From positions 3,451,501 through 3,515,500 of the forward strand of contig NZ_CP110009.1 in assembly GCF_025947305.1 (NCBI RefSeq): DNA of 64,000 nucleotides, written 5' to 3'. Both the position numbers and the translations under genes were made by a program. Each line of letters begins with the position of its first letter. Position 1 is the stretch's first letter. The DNA is from Flavobacterium sp. N3904 (lineage in GTDB: Bacteria > Bacteroidota > Bacteroidia > Flavobacteriales > Flavobacteriaceae). Below the pieces are notes generated by a model, which saw nothing but the letters and a program-made list of their open reading frames with translations, ran no database searches and was not told where the DNA came from. Positions 22,741 to 31,376 of the stretch are shown here, one piece after another.

Positions 22741-23760
22741 TTATTTTTTTTCAAAATAAAGATAATTCGTAGTATTGCTTCCATCACGTAATCTTATTTT
22801 CGAATTATTAAATTCAAACAATTTCCAATTATTATTCAATTTACTGAGCAATTCTGTACTGAAATCTATTTTTAATTCCGTAACGCCATCTTGAATTTTA
22901 GTTTCCCAATTCCCAGTTTCCAAAATCGCTCCTTTAGTGGCAACTACAGTTTTATCACTTTTAAATACAAATGAATAACCACTATATGAGGAAGTCTTCT
23001 CTGAATCATCAAAAAAATAGGGTATTTCCCAAGAACCTTTTGTTATTGTTTCTACAAAATCAAGTGCCACAATGTTATTTTCTGGGCAGTAATCTATGGC
23101 ATATTTTATAGCATTTTCAAAATCTAAATTATTCGTAATTGATCGCGTTTGATTGTTATAATCCACTATTGAAATTGGATAATTTAATGAAATATACTGA
23201 CTGTCGTTCAAATTTTTAATAAAATTGAAAAATGCCTGATCACTAATAATCGAAACCGAACTCCCTACTTGATTTGCGCTATTATAAATATTAATCGTTA
23301 TAGGATAATTGATATTTAGTCCATTTATTTTTGATAAAAGATCAGGATAACGATTCCAATAATCGATTAAGGAATCAAAATCAGCTTCATTCGGAATTAG
23401 CTTTTCGTAGTAATTATAGTAAATCATTGTAACCGGAAAATCTATTTTCACAATATCATCATCGGAAGTATTTGCATTGATATTATCTGTTACTTTTTGA
23501 TAATCGTCGGTTGTATTAACTGCAATTTTCACATTATTAACAACAACCGTATAAGGAAGTTTTATAGTACAGTAATTGGACTTATCGATTACATTGTCCT
23601 GCACTGTTTTCACCATAGCAACTCTTTGCAGATATGAAGTAAGAGGAGAAGTATTATTGACTGTTTCCTGAGTATTATAATCTTGCTTCTCCATTTCACT
23701 TTGACAGGAAAGTAAAAACAAGCAAGTTACAATTGATAAATATTTTTTTAAAGCAAACAT
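22741..23760 (-). CDS. Lipoprotein with four internal repeats and a lipocalin-like C-terminus; ECF-regulon candidate
   Basis: This 339-residue protein has a lipoprotein signal (LLSC19). Residues about 60-230 hold four copies of a motif of the form (L/F/Y)P(Y/V/I)(T/S)(V/M/I)...(D/A)(D/Y/F)...: LPYTVVVNN, FPVTMIYYN, YPITINIYN and YPISIVDYN, each followed by a helix such as DFDSLIDYWN. The C-terminal 100 residues (GSWEIPYFFDDSEKTSSYSGYSFVFKSDKTVVATKG...GNWE) look like a small lipocalin-type barrel. It is divergent from the sigma factor gene, and its upstream region carries the promoter motif shared with fecR and the cytochrome operon. I do not recognise the function; ligand binding at the cell surface is possible. 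Confidence 0.65.
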   Translation of the reverse strand: MFALKKYLSIVTCLFLLSCQSEMEKQDYNTQETVNNTSPLTSYLQRVAMVKTVQDNVIDKSNYCTIKLPYTVVVNNVKIAVNTTDDYQKVTDNINANTSDDDIVKIDFPVTMIYYNYYEKLIPNEADFDSLIDYWNRYPDLLSKINGLNINYPITINIYNSANQVGSSVSIISDQAFFNFIKNLNDSQYISLNYPISIVDYNNQTRSITNNLDFENAIKYAIDYCPENNIVALDFVETITKGSWEIPYFFDDSEKTSSYSGYSFVFKSDKTVVATKGAILETGNWETKIQDGVTELKIDFSTELLSKLNNNWKLFEFNNSKIRLRDGSNTTNYLYFEKK

Positions 23761-23883: not shown

Positions 23884-23912
23884 TAAAACAATCAGCTTTA
23901 CTTTTACCCTAC
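23884..23912 (-). promoter_or_regulatory. ECF-type promoter motif, copy 1 (GTAGGGTAA-N14-GTTTTA)
   Basis: On the minus strand GTAGGGTAA (23912-23904) and GTTTTA (23889-23884) are separated by exactly 14 bases. It points toward the lipoprotein gene, whose ATG is about 120 nt downstream. The same motif with identical spacing occurs at 24478 and 28033. Confidence 0.7.
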
Positions 23913-23928
23913 TTAAACTAAAAATAAA

Positions 23929-23936
23929 TACTTTTG
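23929..23936 (+). promoter_or_regulatory. -7 element of the ECF sigma gene
   Basis: TACTTTTG matches TAnnTTTG, 23 nt before the ATG at 23960. It suggests the sigma gene itself is read by the housekeeping sigma factor. Confidence 0.5.
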
Positions 23937-23959
23937 CTAAGTACAAATTGAAAATCTAA

Positions 23960-24475
23960 ATGCCAAACAAAACCAAATCAAACACTTGTGACGAAATAAT
24001 CTTTTCGTCTTTTTTTAAAAGTCAGATAAAAGCACTTAGAAATTTTCTTTTTTACAAATTTGGCAATATAAACCAGGCAGAAGATTTAGCTCAGGAAGCA
24101 TTTATAAAACTTTGGCAAAACTGTGCTTCGGTTCCAATGGAAAAAGCAAAATCATATATATATACAATTGCAAATAATAGCAGTCTCAACGAAATTGCAC
24201 ATCAAAAAGTTGTTTTAAAATATGAAAAAAACTTCACTGGTTTGGATAAAACAAATGAAAATCCAGAATATCTTTTGGAAGAAAAACAATTTAAAATCAA
24301 ACTTTTGAAAGCTATTGAGAACTTAAACGAAAAGCAACGCATTGCCTTTTTGATGCATCGAATTGATGGAAAAAAATACAGCGAAATTGCTTTGGTTTTA
24401 AATATTAGTATAAAGGCAGTAGAAAAGCGGATTCATTTGGCTTTGCTAAGCTTACGCAAGGAAATTGAGTTATGA
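23960..24475 (+). CDS. ECF-family RNA polymerase sigma factor (FecI-like)
   Basis: This 171-residue protein has a sigma-2 region (LRNFLFYKFGNINQAEDLAQEAFIKLWQN, about 25-55) and a sigma-4 region (QRIAFLMHRIDGKKYSEIALVLNISIKAVEKRIHLALLSLRKEI, about 126-170). There is no sigma-3 domain, as expected for ECF factors. A FecR-type anti-sigma factor and a TonB receptor with a signalling domain follow, forming a cell-surface signalling unit. A promoter motif begins 2 bases after its stop codon, so fecR can be transcribed separately from it. Confidence 0.93.
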   Translation: MPNKTKSNTCDEIIFSSFFKSQIKALRNFLFYKFGNINQAEDLAQEAFIKLWQNCASVPMEKAKSYIYTIANNSSLNEIAHQKVVLKYEKNFTGLDKTNENPEYLLEEKQFKIKLLKAIENLNEKQRIAFLMHRIDGKKYSEIALVLNISIKAVEKRIHLALLSLRKEIEL

Positions 24476-24477
24476 AA

Positions 24478-24506
24478 GTAGGGTAAATTTAGTCGCAGTT
24501 GTTTTA
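24478..24506 (+). promoter_or_regulatory. ECF-type promoter motif, copy 2 (GTAGGGTAA-N14-GTTTTA)
   Basis: GTAGGGTAA (24478-24486) and GTTTTA (24501-24506) with a 14-base spacer, directly in front of fecR (ATG 24526). The expected start near 24514 would leave a leader of about 12 nt. Confidence 0.7.
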
Positions 24507-24525
24507 ATGATATAATACCAGTATA

Positions 24526-25425
24526 ATGAAAAAAGATCGCTTATTAGCAAAATGGCTCAACAATGATTTGTCGGAAGATGAAGTGGCTGAATTTAAAGCA
24601 AGTCCCGATTTCGAAAAATACCAAAAAATTAAAAATTATACGGAACATTTGGAGGTAGCTGATTTGGATGAAAACGCAATGTTATCAAACATACTTAAGC
24701 AGAAAAAAACGACTCCAAAAATAGTGCCTTTATACAAAAAATGGATGTTTCGAGTTGCAGCCGTCTTTGTCCTTGCACTTGGAATTACCTTTTTGTTGAA
24801 AAATTTTGTACCCCAAACACAAATAGCCAATTTTGGAGAAAAAACAACTTTTTCATTGCCTGATAATTCTGAAGTGGTGCTAAATTCCGGCTCTGAAATA
24901 AACTATAAAAAATGGAACTGGGATAACAACAGACGTCTTGAACTAAAAGGAGAAGCGTATTTCAGGGTATCCAAAGGCAGACGGTTTGAAGTACAGACCA
25001 ATCTTGGAAAAGTAACGGTTTTAGGAACTCAATTTAATGTGAAAGCCAGAAAAAACAGATTTGATGTAGTGTGTTATGAAGGACGTGTAAAGGTAAATTA
25101 TGCAAATACTCAAATACTGTTGACTCACGGACAAAGCGTTAGTTTTGAAAACGGAAAACAAGTGAACATGAGGGTGAATTCATTGAAACCAGAATGGACA
25201 GAAAATCAAATTTGTTTTTATAAAGAAAATATCAGGGCCATATTAGACGAAGTAGAAAGGCAATACAATGTTACAATCGAATTAAATACGAAAGACACAA
25301 ACTCCCTATTTACAGGAAAATTACCAAGTAAAGATTTGGATGTAGCCTTACAAATCATTAATACTACCTATCATTTAAAAGGAATAAAAGTCGCAAAAAA
25401 TAAAATAATTTTTGACAAAAAATAA
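24526..25425 (+). CDS. FecR-family anti-sigma factor
   Basis: This 299-residue protein has a short cytoplasmic N-terminal region (about 1-70, MKKDRLLAKWLNNDLSEDEVAEF) for sigma binding, one transmembrane helix (about 77-96, MFRVAAVFVLALGITFLL) and a periplasmic FecR domain (TTFSLPDNSEVVLNSGSEINY ... LKGEAYFRVSKGRRFEVQT ... VLGTQFNVKA). A C-terminal DUF4974-like region (ILDEVERQYNVTIEL ... ALQIINTTYHLKG) receives the signal from the receptor. It touches the TonB receptor gene (stop at 25425, ATG at 25426). Confidence 0.93.
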   Translation: MKKDRLLAKWLNNDLSEDEVAEFKASPDFEKYQKIKNYTEHLEVADLDENAMLSNILKQKKTTPKIVPLYKKWMFRVAAVFVLALGITFLLKNFVPQTQIANFGEKTTFSLPDNSEVVLNSGSEINYKKWNWDNNRRLELKGEAYFRVSKGRRFEVQTNLGKVTVLGTQFNVKARKNRFDVVCYEGRVKVNYANTQILLTHGQSVSFENGKQVNMRVNSLKPEWTENQICFYKENIRAILDEVERQYNVTIELNTKDTNSLFTGKLPSKDLDVALQIINTTYHLKGIKVAKNKIIFDKK

Positions 25426-27960
25426 ATGTTGCGCCCAAAACAATTTCATTTTTTGTTTTTTATATTTTTTCTTGTCTTGAATCTATCTGCTCAAGACAAA
25501 AGAACAGTCATGCCTTTTAAAAAAATAATACTTGAAATTGAAGAACAACATGATGTTACTTTTAATTACACTGAAGATAATATAGCAGGCTTACTAATAA
25601 TTCCTCCAAAAAAATCACTTACCCTAGATCAAAAACTGCTATATCTGGCAAAAGAAACCAATTTATCTTTTGAAAACTTAGGAGATAAATTCATTAATAT
25701 CTATAAAAAAGATAATGAATCCAAAATAATATGTGCATACGTTTTTTCCAGTTCAGATAAAAAGCCTATTGAAGACGCAAATATCAATTTTATTAATAAA
25801 ACGCTGATTACAACTGATTCAAACGGTTATTTTGAGTTTAAAAAAAATGATGCCACTATATTTTCGGTTAGTCACATTGGCTTTATAACCAAAAGAATTG
25901 AAGTAGATAATCAAGACTCCAAAGATTGTCTCCAAATACTATTAGAACCTGAAATTACAGAGCTTGAAGAAATTAAAACCAATGCTATTTTGGCTTCAGG
26001 AATTTCAAAAAACAAAGATGGAGCATTTCAAATTAAGCCTAAAAAATTTGGTATTCTTCCGGGACTAATAGAACCCGATGTCTTGCAAACGATGCAACAA
26101 ATACCCGGTGTAAACAGCATAGACGAAAGTGTTTCGAGCATCAATGTACGTGGCGGTACAAACGATCAGAATTTATTTTTATGGAACGGAATACGAATAT
26201 ACCAAACGGGACATTTTTTTGGTTTAATATCGGTTTTCAATCCCTATTTGGCACATACCATTTCTATTTATAAAAATGGAAGTTCTGCATTTTACGGAGA
26301 AAGTGTATCCAGTGTTGTAGCAATTTCTTCTACTCCTGAAACAACAGAAAAAAACTATTTTAGTGCAGGAATAAATATGATTAATGCTGATATTTATACG
26401 AAATACAATCTTTCGAAAAACAATTATATCGAACTTTCGGTGCGCAAATCCATTACTGATTTTGTAGAAACTCCAACTTATAAAGAATATTTTAATAAAG
26501 TATTTCAAAACACTACCATCACCGATTTTTCACAAAACCAGAATGTCAATTATCAAAGCGATAAAAAATTTGGTTTCTACGATGCTACTCTTAAATATTT
26601 TCAAAAAGTAGGTCTTAAAGATCTATTGATACTAGACCTGATCACCATAAAAGACAATTTACAAGTTTTTCAAAGTGCAACTGCAAATAACATAAACAAA
26701 TCGGAAAACAATATTTTGCGCCAACAAAATTATGGCGCAAATTTGTCTTGGATAAGAAACTGGAATAACTTCAATACAACTAAAATTAACATTTATAGTT
26801 CTTCCTATGGACTTTTGGCCGACCAAAAAAACACCTTTGGAAATCAAATTGTCATTCAGGAAAACATTGTTAACAATAATGGAATTAATTTAGAGAATAA
26901 CCATATTATTACATCAAAATTTAGTTTTAACGATGGGTATCAATTTAACGAAATAGGTATTACTAATTTAGAGCAGGTAAGTAATCCTGATTTCTATCGA
27001 AAAGTTAAAAATGTCCTTAGAACACAAGCATTAATTTTAGAAGGAAAATACAATGACACACTTTCGAGAATTTATTTGAAAGCAGGAACCCGAATTAATT
27101 ATATTCAAAAGTTTGAAAAATATATTGTAGAACCCAGAATACAATTTAGTTATGGTGTCACTAAAAATCTAAATTTAGAACTGCTAGGCGAGCTAAAAAG
27201 TCAAAATTCCCAACAAATCATTGATTTGCAAAAAGATTATTTTGGCATTGAAAAAAGACGTTGGGTTCTCTCAAACAACACAACAATCCCTATTCAAAGA
27301 AGCAAACAAATTTCATTAAATATATTCTATAAAAAGAATAATTGGCTGTTGGATATAGAAAATTTTTATAAAAAAGTAGCAGGAATTACAACTTCCAGCC
27401 AAGGTTTTCAGAATCAGTTAGAATTTATTCGAACAAATGGCGATTATCAAGTTTTGGGAACAGAGATACTAGTTCAGAAAAAAATAAATCACTTTCTGAC
27501 TTGGTTGAGTTATACCTATAATAAAAATAATTATTATTTCTACAATTATGAATATCCAAGATTCCCAAATAATTTTGAGTTAATTCATACTTTATCCTGT
27601 GCCGCAATTTATGAGAAAAACGATTTCAAAATAGCTTTAGGAACAAAATTATCTTCAGGAAGGCCTACAACCTCACCCCACAGTTCTCAAATTGATCCTT
27701 CAAATCCTGTTCTGATTTATAACAAGCCGAATAACACCAATTTAAATATATTTTCACAAGTCAATTTTTCTTCCACTTACCAATGGGAAACTACAAATAG
27801 AACCCAATATAAGTTGGGGCTATCTGTATTAAATATCCTAAATAGAAAAAATGAAATCAATGAATATTACAGAATAAGTTCTTTAACAAATTCTATAGAG
27901 GAAGTTGAAACATTCGCACTGCAAAGAACTTTAAACATGAGCTTTAGAGTTTCATTTTAA
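25426..27960 (+). CDS. TonB-dependent receptor with N-terminal signalling (STN) domain
   Basis: This 844-residue outer-membrane protein has a signal peptide (1-22, LNLSAQ). An STN signalling domain follows (about 26-92, KKIILEIEEQHDVTFNYTEDN...LYLAKETNLSFE), then a carboxypeptidase-regulatory-like domain (about 100-185), a plug (about 205-300, MQQIPGVNSIDESVSSINVRGGTNDQNLFLWNGIRIYQ) and a beta-barrel ending in the terminal aromatic (RVSF). It is shorter than SusC proteins and has no SusD partner. STN plus FecR plus sigma indicates transcriptional autoregulation by ligand uptake. The ligand is unknown; a metal complex, haem or small organic ligand would fit the downstream cytochromes. Confidence 0.92.
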   Translation: MLRPKQFHFLFFIFFLVLNLSAQDKRTVMPFKKIILEIEEQHDVTFNYTEDNIAGLLIIPPKKSLTLDQKLLYLAKETNLSFENLGDKFINIYKKDNESKIICAYVFSSSDKKPIEDANINFINKTLITTDSNGYFEFKKNDATIFSVSHIGFITKRIEVDNQDSKDCLQILLEPEITELEEIKTNAILASGISKNKDGAFQIKPKKFGILPGLIEPDVLQTMQQIPGVNSIDESVSSINVRGGTNDQNLFLWNGIRIYQTGHFFGLISVFNPYLAHTISIYKNGSSAFYGESVSSVVAISSTPETTEKNYFSAGINMINADIYTKYNLSKNNYIELSVRKSITDFVETPTYKEYFNKVFQNTTITDFSQNQNVNYQSDKKFGFYDATLKYFQKVGLKDLLILDLITIKDNLQVFQSATANNINKSENNILRQQNYGANLSWIRNWNNFNTTKINIYSSSYGLLADQKNTFGNQIVIQENIVNNNGINLENNHIITSKFSFNDGYQFNEIGITNLEQVSNPDFYRKVKNVLRTQALILEGKYNDTLSRIYLKAGTRINYIQKFEKYIVEPRIQFSYGVTKNLNLELLGELKSQNSQQIIDLQKDYFGIEKRRWVLSNNTTIPIQRSKQISLNIFYKKNNWLLDIENFYKKVAGITTSSQGFQNQLEFIRTNGDYQVLGTEILVQKKINHFLTWLSYTYNKNNYYFYNYEYPRFPNNFELIHTLSCAAIYEKNDFKIALGTKLSSGRPTTSPHSSQIDPSNPVLIYNKPNNTNLNIFSQVNFSSTYQWETTNRTQYKLGLSVLNILNRKNEINEYYRISSLTNSIEEVETFALQRTLNMSFRVSF

Positions 27961-28032
27961 TTCTATTTCTACAAGGTTTCAAAAAAATTATTACTCTTTT
28001 TTTAATTTTTTTCATAAAATAACAATTCTTTG

Positions 28033-28061
28033 GTAGGGTAATCTGCATCAAAGCTGTTTTA
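28033..28061 (+). promoter_or_regulatory. ECF-type promoter motif, copy 3 (GTAGGGTAA-N14-GTTTTA)
   Basis: GTAGGGTAA (28033-28041) and GTTTTA (28056-28061) with a 14-base spacer, in front of the cytochrome operon (ATG 28122). The spacer shares the ag(t/c)t before GTTTTA with copy 2. Confidence 0.7.
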
Positions 28062-28121
28062 CTATTGAATCCTATTAAAAGGATAAAATGATTCCTTATT
28101 AACCCAATAAATTAATTGACT

Positions 28122-28505
28122 ATGAAAAAATTTAAAGCAGCCTGTTCAGTGTTAGTTATAGCTTTTGCAATGATGTCATGTAGCGGAGGTAGTGATGATC
28201 CAGTGACTCCTCCAGTGACACCCCCAACAGATGGAGGTGGTGGCTCAACAGTAACCAATCCAACTTATACGGCAAATATTAAAGCAATTATTGATGGAAA
28301 TTGTATATCCTGCCATGGTCCAGGAGGAGAACAAAGCGATCATCCACTTCTAACGTATGCACAAGTAAGTGCCAGATCTTCGGATATAAAAGAAAGAATA
28401 GCAAAACCGGCCGGAGACCCTATGGTGATGCCTAAAGGCGGAAAATTGTCACAAGCTAATATTGATTTGATTAATAAATGGATTACCAACGGTATGCCTA
28501 ATTAG
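28122..28505 (+). CDS. Lipid-anchored small cytochrome c
   Basis: I chose the ATG at 28122 (127 residues) over a TTG two codons earlier. The lipobox is MMSC (about residue 20), followed by a Pro/Thr/Gly-rich linker (DDPVTPPVTPPTDGGGG). A single haem-binding domain contains CISCHG, and MPKGGKLSQANIDLINKWITNGMPN supplies a likely axial Met. The domain resembles the short cytochromes fused to PSD1-type proteins. It is the first gene of the cytochrome/OB-fold/DUF5777/cytochrome/YceI operon and lies behind the sigma-type motif. It probably transfers electrons in the periplasm or at the outer membrane. Confidence 0.85.
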   Translation: MKKFKAACSVLVIAFAMMSCSGGSDDPVTPPVTPPTDGGGGSTVTNPTYTANIKAIIDGNCISCHGPGGEQSDHPLLTYAQVSARSSDIKERIAKPAGDPMVMPKGGKLSQANIDLINKWITNGMPN

Positions 28506-28533
28506 AGCCACGTATCAAAAAAGGAAAAAAGAA

Positions 28534-28929
28534 ATGAGTAAAAAAGCCAAATTAATTATTTTAATACCTATCATAATTGGGTTGTTTGGCTTTTTCGCCT
28601 ATAATTATGTCATGTATGGCGGTGCCCGAAATTTGACAACCGAAGAAACCATTTTTGCAGTTACTTCTTCATCCATTAGCTCAGAATTTATCACAAACAT
28701 TGAAAAAGCAAATGAAAAATACCTTGAAAAAGCAATAACGATAAAAGGAAAAATCACTGCATCTAATACAAACAATGTTATCCTGGACGGGGTTATTATT
28801 TGCAGTTGTAACAATCAGGAATTACCAATTAAAACAGAAGAAATAGTAACCGTAAAAGGGAGGGTCGTTGGTTATGATGATTTGATGGGGGAATTAAAAT
28901 TGGATCAATGTTTTGTAATCAAAAATTAA
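28534..28929 (+). CDS. Membrane-anchored OB-fold (tRNA_anti-like) protein
   Basis: This 131-residue protein has an N-terminal membrane anchor or uncleaved signal (about 5-27, LIILIPIIIGLFGFFAYNYV). An OB-fold like the tRNA_anti-like family follows (YLEKAITIKGKITASNTNNVILDGVIICSCNN...EEIVTVKGRVVGYDDLMGELKLDQC). Such domains in Bacteroidetes often bind nucleotides or small ligands extracytoplasmically, but no function is established. It is 28 bp after the first cytochrome gene and 5 bp before the DUF5777 gene. Two Cys near ICSCNN are notable. Confidence 0.75.
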   Translation: MSKKAKLIILIPIIIGLFGFFAYNYVMYGGARNLTTEETIFAVTSSSISSEFITNIEKANEKYLEKAITIKGKITASNTNNVILDGVIICSCNNQELPIKTEEIVTVKGRVVGYDDLMGELKLDQCFVIKN

Positions 28930-28934
28930 ATTAA

Positions 28935-29798
28935 ATGAATGTAAAATTAATATTTTTCTTATTATTTGGACTTTTGGTTGCAAGCCACGCCTCTGCTCAG
29001 GATGATTTGTTAAAGGAATTGGATACCGTAAAATCCAAAGAAAAACAAGTTGCAGTTGCAGCTTTCAAAGGGCTTCAGATTTGCAATATGCAATCGACAA
29101 AGTTAGCTGGTAAAGGTGAATGGTATGTGCTGATTTCACACCGCTTTGGCGATTTGACTGAAGGTTTAGACAATTTTTTTGGACTGGATGATGCTTATAC
29201 AAAATTAGGTGCAATTTATGGGGTTACGAATTGGCTGTCCATCGGACTGTCAAGACAAACCAATAATAAAATTTACGAATTAACGGCTAAATATAGATTT
29301 AAAAGCCAAGAAATAGATGGGTTTCCAGTCACGATTGTGGGCTACAATACTATGGATATTAATTCCAATTTAAGCACGGATATCTACCCGGGATTAAAAC
29401 CCTATAATCGTCTGGCTTATAGCACCCAATTATTAATTTCAAGAAAATTTACTGATAAGTTCTCTGCCGAATTAACACCAATTTATATTCATAAAAACCT
29501 ATATGATCAAACTACCGAAAAGGAGAATCAATTTACATTAGGAATGGGAGGAAGATATAAATTGACGAAAAGATTAAGTGTGAATTTTGAATATGCGCCT
29601 CGAATAGATGCTCCTGAAAATATTGTTTACCATGATTTGCTTTCGCTGGGTTTGGATATTGATACAGGAGGGCATATTTTTCAGTTGGTATTCTCCAATT
29701 GTCAGACAATGAATGATGTTTATGTGTTTACTGATGCTACTGGAAAATGGAATGGGGGGAGTCTGTATTTTGGATTTAACTTGTATAGAGTTTTTTAA
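28935..29798 (+). CDS. DUF5777-type outer-membrane beta-barrel protein
   Basis: This 287-residue protein has a signal peptide (1-21, SHASAQ) and then a barrel-like sequence with repeated amphipathic strands, for example GEWYVLISHRFGDLTEGLDNFFGLDDAYTKLGAIYGVTNWLSIGLSRQ and KPYNRLAYSTQLLISRKF. These match the DUF5777 family as I remember it. It ends with an aromatic residue (YRVF), as outer-membrane proteins do. Flanking cytochrome genes suggest it may be the outer-membrane component of a redox module. No enzymatic residues are evident. Confidence 0.75.
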   Translation: MNVKLIFFLLFGLLVASHASAQDDLLKELDTVKSKEKQVAVAAFKGLQICNMQSTKLAGKGEWYVLISHRFGDLTEGLDNFFGLDDAYTKLGAIYGVTNWLSIGLSRQTNNKIYELTAKYRFKSQEIDGFPVTIVGYNTMDINSNLSTDIYPGLKPYNRLAYSTQLLISRKFTDKFSAELTPIYIHKNLYDQTTEKENQFTLGMGGRYKLTKRLSVNFEYAPRIDAPENIVYHDLLSLGLDIDTGGHIFQLVFSNCQTMNDVYVFTDATGKWNGGSLYFGFNLYRVF

Positions 29799-29816
29799 AA
29801 TTAATAAAATATACAG

Positions 29817-30161
29817 ATGAAAAAAAAGCAACTATTCTTGATATTATTATGCGGTGCATTCGTTGTTTCCTGCGAGTCAAACACTTATGATGAGATAAGC
29901 AAACAAACTGAAAATCCTACTTACGAAGCGGATGTAGAGCATATTATGCATCATAATTGCCTTAGTTGCCATTATGGAACGAATCAATATCCTAATCTGG
30001 AAACCTATGATGGCGTGAAAAATGCTTGCATTAATGTTAATTTAGTTTGTAGAATCGAATCGGAAAAATGTGGGGAAAGAATGCCGCAAGGAGGAAAATT
30101 GCCACAATCGGATATTGATTTGATAAAACTCTGGGTGGCTAACGGATTTGTGGAAAAATAA
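29817..30161 (+). CDS. Lipid-anchored small cytochrome c (second of operon)
   Basis: This 114-residue protein has a lipobox (VVSC19) and a haem motif NCLSCHYG. The terminal part GERMPQGGKLPQSDIDLIKLWVANGF closely parallels the first cytochrome of the operon (MPKGGKLSQANIDLINKWITNGM), so the two are paralogues. Two extra cysteines (NACINVNLVC and SEKCGERMP) may form a disulphide. It is 18 bp after the DUF5777 gene and 6 bp before the YceI gene. Confidence 0.85.
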   Translation: MKKKQLFLILLCGAFVVSCESNTYDEISKQTENPTYEADVEHIMHHNCLSCHYGTNQYPNLETYDGVKNACINVNLVCRIESEKCGERMPQGGKLPQSDIDLIKLWVANGFVEK

Positions 30162-30167
30162 ACTAAA

Positions 30168-30713
30168 ATGATAAAAAAAACAGCATTCTTGATAATGTGT
30201 TTTTTTGTGGGAAACATAATTTTCTCCCAAAAAATGATGACACGAACCGGGCAAATAAAATTTGAGGCCTCTGAACCTTCCTTTGAGCCTGTTGCAGCCG
30301 AAAGTAATTCGGTTTCTGCAGTTCTAGATGGATCGAATGGTGAATTTGCTGTATTGGCTTTAATAAAGACTTTCAAGTTTAAAGTTCCTTTGATGGAAGA
30401 ACATTTTAATGAAAATTATTTGGAGTCTTCCAAATATCCAAAAGCAACTTTTAAAGGTAAAATTATAAATTTTGATGCCTCAAAATTGACTACTTCCGAA
30501 AAATACGATTTAGAAGGCGATTTGACCATACATGGTGTAACCAAAAAGATTAAAACAAAAATCACATTAGTTTCAAAAGATGGAAAATTATATGTGACCA
30601 ATAGTTTTAACGTAAAAGCTCATGATTTTGATATAAAAATACCCAGTATTGTGAAGAGTAAAGTATCGGACGATGTAAATGTTGTCTTTGATTTTATTCT
30701 TGATAAAAAGTAA
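30168..30713 (+). CDS. YceI-family periplasmic lipocalin-like protein
   Basis: This 181-residue secreted protein has a signal peptide (1-21, NIIFSQ) and the YceI barrel: RTGQIKFEASEPSFEPVAAESNSVSAVLDGSNGEFAVLALIKTFKFKVPLMEEHFNENYLESSKYPKATFKGKI...GDLTIHGVTKKIKTKITLV. YceI proteins bind isoprenoids such as quinones or polyprenyl lipids. Last gene of this tight operon, only 6 bp after the cytochrome. A quinone-binding role near cytochromes would make sense but is inferred. Confidence 0.9.
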   Translation: MIKKTAFLIMCFFVGNIIFSQKMMTRTGQIKFEASEPSFEPVAAESNSVSAVLDGSNGEFAVLALIKTFKFKVPLMEEHFNENYLESSKYPKATFKGKIINFDASKLTTSEKYDLEGDLTIHGVTKKIKTKITLVSKDGKLYVTNSFNVKAHDFDIKIPSIVKSKVSDDVNVVFDFILDKK

Positions 30714-30896: not shown

Positions 30897-31376
30897 ATGA
30901 AATCTGTATTTAATTTTTCAGTAATCTTATTATTGCTTTTTATTGGAGTTTCTTGCTCCAATAGTGATGACAATCCTACCCCTACACCAACTCCGATAAT
31001 TGTTACCTTCAACGCTACTTTGGATGGTGCAAGTGAAGTCCCGGCAAATGCTTCAACTGCAACAGGAACCGCAACATTGAGTTATAATAAAACTACAAAA
31101 ATCTTCACACTCAATCTAACCTATTCCGGATTAACACCAACCATGGGTCATATCCACGTTGGAGCGGTAGGTGTTAGCGGCTCTGTTGTATTTCCTTTTT
31201 CCAACTTGATGTCACCTTTTAGTTATACAAGTGCTGCCTTGACTACTGCACAAGAGGCTGATCTTTTGGCTAATAATTACTATGTAAACTTACATACTGC
31301 TACTTTTCCTGGAGGGGAAATCAGAGGCCAACTAACTACCTCAAATCCTGGTGGAACTGGCGGAGGCACTTACTAA
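30897..31376 (+). CDS. CHRD-domain lipoprotein
   Basis: This 159-residue lipoprotein has a lipobox near GVSC20, a Thr/Pro linker (NPTPTPTPI) and a CHRD domain: VTFNATLDGASEVPANASTATGTATLSYNKTTKIFTLNLTYSGL...GHIHVGAVGVSGSVV...YYVNLHTATFPGGEIRGQL. CHRD domains occur in chordin and in many bacterial secreted proteins and have no assigned activity. It lies 183 bp after the YceI gene without a copy of the sigma-type motif, so it is probably a separate unit. A strong terminator follows. Confidence 0.88.
   Translation: MKSVFNFSVILLLLFIGVSCSNSDDNPTPTPTPIIVTFNATLDGASEVPANASTATGTATLSYNKTTKIFTLNLTYSGLTPTMGHIHVGAVGVSGSVVFPFSNLMSPFSYTSAALTTAQEADLLANNYYVNLHTATFPGGEIRGQLTTSNPGGTGGGTY

Follow-up and report, generated by a model that had tools for sequence, protein, structure and literature searches.

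A putative promoter code for an ECF sigma factor at a FecI/FecR-type locus of Flavobacterium sp. N3904

What reads the two-part motif GTAGGGTAA-N14-GTTTTA, which stands in three exact copies, all within 4.2 kb, beside a sigma factor gene of Flavobacterium sp. N3904? An exact pattern search finds the three copies in the window (i.e., the whole 64-kb stretch analyzed here, at 3,451,501–3,515,500 of a genome that forms one contig of 4,380,744 bp). An earlier note on this DNA had proposed that they are promoters of a local regulon and had placed them correctly, at 23912–23884 on the minus strand and at 24478–24506 and 28033–28061 on the plus strand. Its statement that the fixed bases are identical across the copies holds, but its count of 15 does not, since 16 are shared: a T precedes GTTTTA in every copy (TGTTTTA). 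The spacers are completely different. The three copies are very probably the −35 (GTAGGGTAA) and −10 (TGTTTTA) elements of promoters read by the sigma factor encoded at 23960–24475, acting in the circuit proposed below.

The locus and its three motif copies

The gene order is lipoprotein (minus strand), ECF sigma factor, fecR, TonB-dependent receptor, cytochrome c, OB-fold protein, DUF5777 protein, cytochrome c, YceI protein and CHRD protein, with the following features:

22741–23760, minus: lipoprotein with a repeat domain and a lipocalin-like C terminus (model mean pLDDT 83.7; best fold match DUF4847, 4zgf; no match in Pfam or NCBIfam)
23884–23912, minus: putative ECF-type promoter, GTAGGGTAA-N13-TGTTTTA, for the divergent lipoprotein (exact match; same place in 68/83 homologous genes)
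23929–23936, plus: TACTTTTG, −7 box of the sigma gene, of the housekeeping type TAnnTTTG (kept in almost all 37 aligned loci)
23960–24475, plus: ECF sigma factor, 171 aa (Sigma70_r2, 4e-11; Sigma70_r4_2, 1.2e-16; profile matches SigW and RpoE in the PDB)
24478–24506, plus: putative ECF-type promoter for fecR and the TonB-dependent receptor (exact match; same place in 71/78 fecR genes)
24526–25425, plus: FecR-type anti-sigma factor or regulator (FecR, 4.3e-19; FecR_C, 7.3e-11)
25426–27960, plus: TonB-dependent receptor with an N-terminal STN/FecR_C-like domain, a carboxypeptidase-regulatory-like domain and a plug (Pfam; model matches FoxA, FecA and FpvA)
28033–28061, plus: putative ECF-type promoter for the cytochrome/OB-fold/DUF5777/cytochrome/YceI operon (exact match; ∼4.07 kb past the sigma start in most close relatives; moves with the operon)
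28122–28505, plus: c-type cytochrome lipoprotein (Cytochrom_C, 1.2e-4)
28534–28929, plus: OB-fold (tRNA_anti-like) protein
28935–29798, plus: DUF5777 outer-membrane barrel (3.1e-83)
29817–30161, plus: small c-type cytochrome (CxxCH; cytochro_C551, 4.9e-5, below cut-off)
30168–30713, plus: YceI-family lipocalin (3.5e-18)
30897–31376, plus: CHRD-domain lipoprotein (1.1e-30), possibly the end of the redox operon across a 184-bp gap

With 171 residues and σ2 and σ4 regions only (Sigma70_r2 and Sigma70_r4_2), the sigma factor has the build by which ECF sigma factors are recognized, namely these two regions alone in about 170–190 aa; at 112.3 bits against a curated cut-off of 126.4, it is related to the Bacteroidetes subfamily TIGR02985 without being a member. 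As expected of a FecI/FecR/TonB-dependent receptor system, a fecR gene with a FecR domain adjoins the sigma gene. The N terminus of the receptor matches FecR_C in 7 of 12 members (best 1.8e-5) and STN in 5 of 12 (best 0.026) and is modeled as an α/β domain (pLDDT about 70–86), and a PDB sequence search with it gave no match; the receptor fold, in a structure model of modest confidence, is that of TonB-dependent receptors including the transducers FoxA and FecA. Among named relatives, the nearest belong to Flavobacterium, and their sigma factors are up to 92% identical; a plasmid search did not find the locus.

When all 4,380,744 bp were searched with gaps of 13–15 bp, the only exact matches were the three in the window, so that the absence of a further copy, noted earlier for the window, extends to the 4.38-Mb genome, and the genome-wide search set beforehand returned one locus rather than random hits. 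The reversed pattern, used as a control, has no exact match in the whole genome, and 100 dinucleotide-preserving shuffles of the window contain no copy. A relaxed pattern, GTAGGGTW-N14-TGTTNTA, adds one site, C1:1031659–1031687, which we regard as a coding coincidence because it is situated within an AraC-type coding sequence, at its 5′ end, and recurs nearly identically in two congeners that lack the sigma factor (G336 and G343); no gene follows it on its own strand. Sites with three mismatches are background (169 genome-wide versus 462 in the control), and those with two to three mismatches across the genome were likewise dismissed.

Conservation, co-occurrence and covariation with the sigma factor

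The earlier note had held that absence of the motif from homologous loci would speak against a promoter; instead, the motif is kept across 80 named Flavobacterium loci. Scored with at most 2 mismatches over 15 positions and a 14-bp gap, it stands upstream of fecR in 71/78 cases, of the divergent lipoprotein gene in 68/83 and of an OB-fold gene in 21/45, and was found upstream of neither the sigma gene (0/76) nor the receptor gene (0/74). About 20 further close relatives carry it upstream of a lipoprotein gene that leads the redox operon (in one, L091, the protein is PF03640, Lipoprotein_15), and where the redox operon is displaced, in seven loci, the motif precedes the operon or its new first gene. 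A comparison of 220 sites shows positions 1–7 and TGTT to be nearly invariant and the spacer variable. The sites thus have the marks of an ECF-dependent promoter, i.e., a pair of conserved elements, set a constant distance apart, that precede genes and point toward them, and the element is shared by species with sigma factors of 60–90% identity and by other genera.

Motif and sigma factor also occur together. Among 150 Flavobacterium genomes, the motif is present in 55/59 that bear the sigma factor versus 7/91 that do not (P 4e-28, kinship ignored). When the relaxed motif was scored in 199 Flavobacteriaceae genomes, almost one per genus, it was found in 80/140 sigma-bearing versus 2/59 sigma-less genomes (Fisher P 2e-14, kinship ignored), with 216 versus 2 sites in total, compared with 19 versus 5 for the reversed-pattern control. 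The 60 sigma-bearing genomes without a match to the exact relaxed pattern presumably carry variants of the motif. It should be noted that the cut-off for a close sigma factor (1e-20) admits paralogs too; since paralogs with the same motif are present in some genera, remote sites there may serve another sigma copy.

The −35 element tracks region 4 of the sigma factor. Thirty sigma loci, mostly from different genera, were typed by sequence: IS[VI]KAVEKR-like helix types have GTAGGGT at 35/35 adjacent sites, whereas in a sister subtype, whose recognition helix differs (ISTKAVEKR), 16/18 sites read GTAGG and then A or T and 1/18 has GGGT, so that GTAGGA replaces GTAGGGT beside an unchanged TGTT box. 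Sigma recognition predicts that helix and −35 box change together, and their joint change, a correlation over these 30 loci, therefore points to direct reading of the motif by the sigma factor.

Could something other than a promoter for this sigma factor explain the motif? It might be the site of a separate, co-regulating transcription factor, with the sigma factor reading something else, which we regard as improbable: the motif is two-part and non-palindromic, always faces a gene and has an invariant 14-bp gap, its first part varies with the sigma recognition helix, its TGTT resembles ECF −10 elements, and the loci have no other regulator gene in common. The crowding of the three copies into 4.2 kb would suit copies that arose recently within one genome, by duplication of a promoter fragment or by gene conversion; yet the spacers are entirely different and the element persists beside sigma factors of 60–90% identity and in other genera, which leaves this explanation with almost no credibility. 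Equally little can be given to chance, with no copy in 100 shuffles and three in 4.38 Mb, all at one locus. Conserved placement, co-occurrence and covariation together support the earlier proposal that the sigma factor drives fecR and the receptor, the lipoprotein and the redox operon.

The predicted circuit and its known relatives

The sigma gene itself had been assigned a housekeeping-type box, TACTTTTG, and this stood up: the box is conserved in Flavobacterium, and no motif points toward the sigma gene. It lies 16 bp from the motif in the window and in 36/76 loci, and 12–20 bp in most others; a box is found near a random point 17% of the time. If the box is taken as −12 to −5, where the Flavobacterium housekeeping box has been placed (PMC9723704), the −33 region of the sigma promoter is placed near 23908, within the divergent −35 element (23904–23912); the −33 box is poorly defined in Flavobacterium johnsoniae (PMC7366714). 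From this geometry, which is new here, we infer that the sigma promoter and the divergent ECF promoter are mutually exclusive, and auto-repression of the sigma gene through the overlapping −35 element is possible on the same grounds.

As read from its sequence, the locus is a predicted FecI/FecR/TonB-receptor surface-signaling circuit with its own promoter code. Basal sigma factor would be made from the housekeeping promoter and held or licensed by the FecR membrane protein; a ligand at the TonB-dependent receptor would signal through the N-terminal domain to FecR, and the freed sigma factor would transcribe three units, namely fecR-receptor, the divergent lipoprotein and the periplasmic/outer-membrane redox operon. 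Transcription of fecR-receptor would provide feedback and more receptor. The sigma gene would not activate itself, and polymerase bound to the divergent promoter would be expected to occlude the −33 region of the sigma promoter, limiting sigma synthesis.

With the E. coli FecI-FecR-FecA system, the locus shares an ECF sigma factor, a FecR protein with FecR and FecR_C domains, a receptor with an N-terminal signaling domain (here a candidate) and a sigma gene that is not self-activated. Unlike in E. coli, fecR and the receptor gene are predicted to form one sigma-driven unit, the predicted targets include a lipoprotein and a cytochrome/YceI operon where E. coli has a ferric citrate transporter, and neither the promoter code nor the housekeeping box is that of E. 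coli. Another putative ECF promoter of the genus, SM6 of Flavobacterium psychrophilum (PMC9723704), has a CGT box in place of GTAGGGT/TGTT and is associated with type IX secretion genes. In Bacteroides thetaiotaomicron, the mapped start sites of an ECF regulon are preceded at about −10 by TGTT (PMC12596196), and the ECF-linked promoter motif 2 and SigW-1/SigH-1 promoters (PMC7366714, PMC12596196) resemble the present motif in having TGTT at ∼−10, a comparison of the −10 part alone; their regulons differ from the one described here. YceI lipocalins have been linked with cytochromes in the defense against lipid peroxides (PMC9113575); the redox operon resembles this pairing, so that a role in envelope redox chemistry is plausible. 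In BcnA/LcoA, a YceI lipocalin is genetically tied to a cytochrome, as YceI occurs with cytochromes here, but that cytochrome is a membrane b561, in contrast to the c-type cytochromes and DUF5777 barrel of this locus (PMC9113575).

A wider regulon in the family and a candidate small RNA

The description of the regulon as local is right for the N3904 genome; in other genera, the predicted regulon is wider. Of the remote sites retrieved there, 69/83 are intergenic. They precede the cytochrome-YceI-OB-DUF5777 cluster with a plastocyanin-like protein (three loci: L197, L226 and L249), relatives of the lipoprotein (three sites), a di-haem peroxidase (MauG) operon and a YHYH protein. Some remote sites are coding coincidences and were rejected, with GTAGGGTTCCGGCCCGTTCNGTTGTTATA in a conserved open reading frame (L175, L204, L208, L225 and L238).

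The cytochrome c, YceI, OB-fold and DUF5777 genes travel together in shuffled order (28116–30713 in the window, and L197, L226 and L249), and the set is an uncharacterized conserved redox module across genera. In eight genera, the motif is followed directly by a gene for a 55-aa membrane protein (MDVINEII...FGY) that matches no Pfam family above cut-off. Hydrophobic peptides of 27–40 aa are encoded behind the motif in four loci, and in three of these (L206, L233 and L245) they adjoin an apparent cyclophilin gene.

In the interval from pdxH to guaA, two genes named from Pfam matches in L203, motif sites are followed not by an open reading frame but by a conserved 3′ core, TTCATGTGTTTAGGTTGGTTTTGATTT, with a terminator hairpin. 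The RNA-like unit is ∼110 nt long (L203:2015–2125, plus strand; also L254–L278, L280 and L282). Covariation supports its hairpin, which shows 40 double-changed cells versus 9.0 in shuffles and is 96.7% paired, in an alignment that was fitted to the model and so favors structure. An RNA model of the 3′ part only, built from six sequences with the motif excluded, gave 27 good matches in 27 genera, all of them sigma-bearing, and the motif lies 23–189 nt upstream in 27/27 (24 exact, two with one mismatch and one with two), including all 21 matches outside the building set. Three weaker matches without the motif (L279, L281 and L283) are regarded as false. A scan of 10 loci against Rfam gave no match to the RNA at gathering thresholds, and the pdxH-guaA RNA is absent from the N3904 genome. 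In some genera, the sigma gene has as its divergent neighbor an RNA-like unit with a AGTTGGTT core and a terminator (L213, minus strand, from 29 nt past the motif; L043, upstream of the sigma gene), and these units are perhaps related to the pdxH-guaA RNA. The enterobacterial RNAs RybB and MicA are Sigma-E-dependent sRNAs; the flavobacterial candidate would likewise be an ECF-driven small RNA, of unrelated sequence.

It is thus likely that the sigma family and GTAGGGTW-N14-TGTTNTA define a Flavobacteriaceae-wide regulon that includes small membrane proteins and a sigma-dependent pdxH-guaA small RNA, found in 27 genera, and that is a purely local set in N3904. Bacteroidetes genomes encode up to dozens of ECF sigma factors, and to our knowledge few of their promoter codes are known. 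The motif had been called unreported, and a search of open-access literature gave no description of it among the matches listed; in the same literature, the subtype switch and the associated RNA also appear undescribed. Because the code is shared by many genera and its specificity switches naturally from one sigma subtype to another, the recognition of promoters by sigma factors can be tested on it directly; it also yields a ready regulon, with an apparently undescribed small RNA among its members, and, for flavobacterial genetics, a candidate orthogonal promoter.
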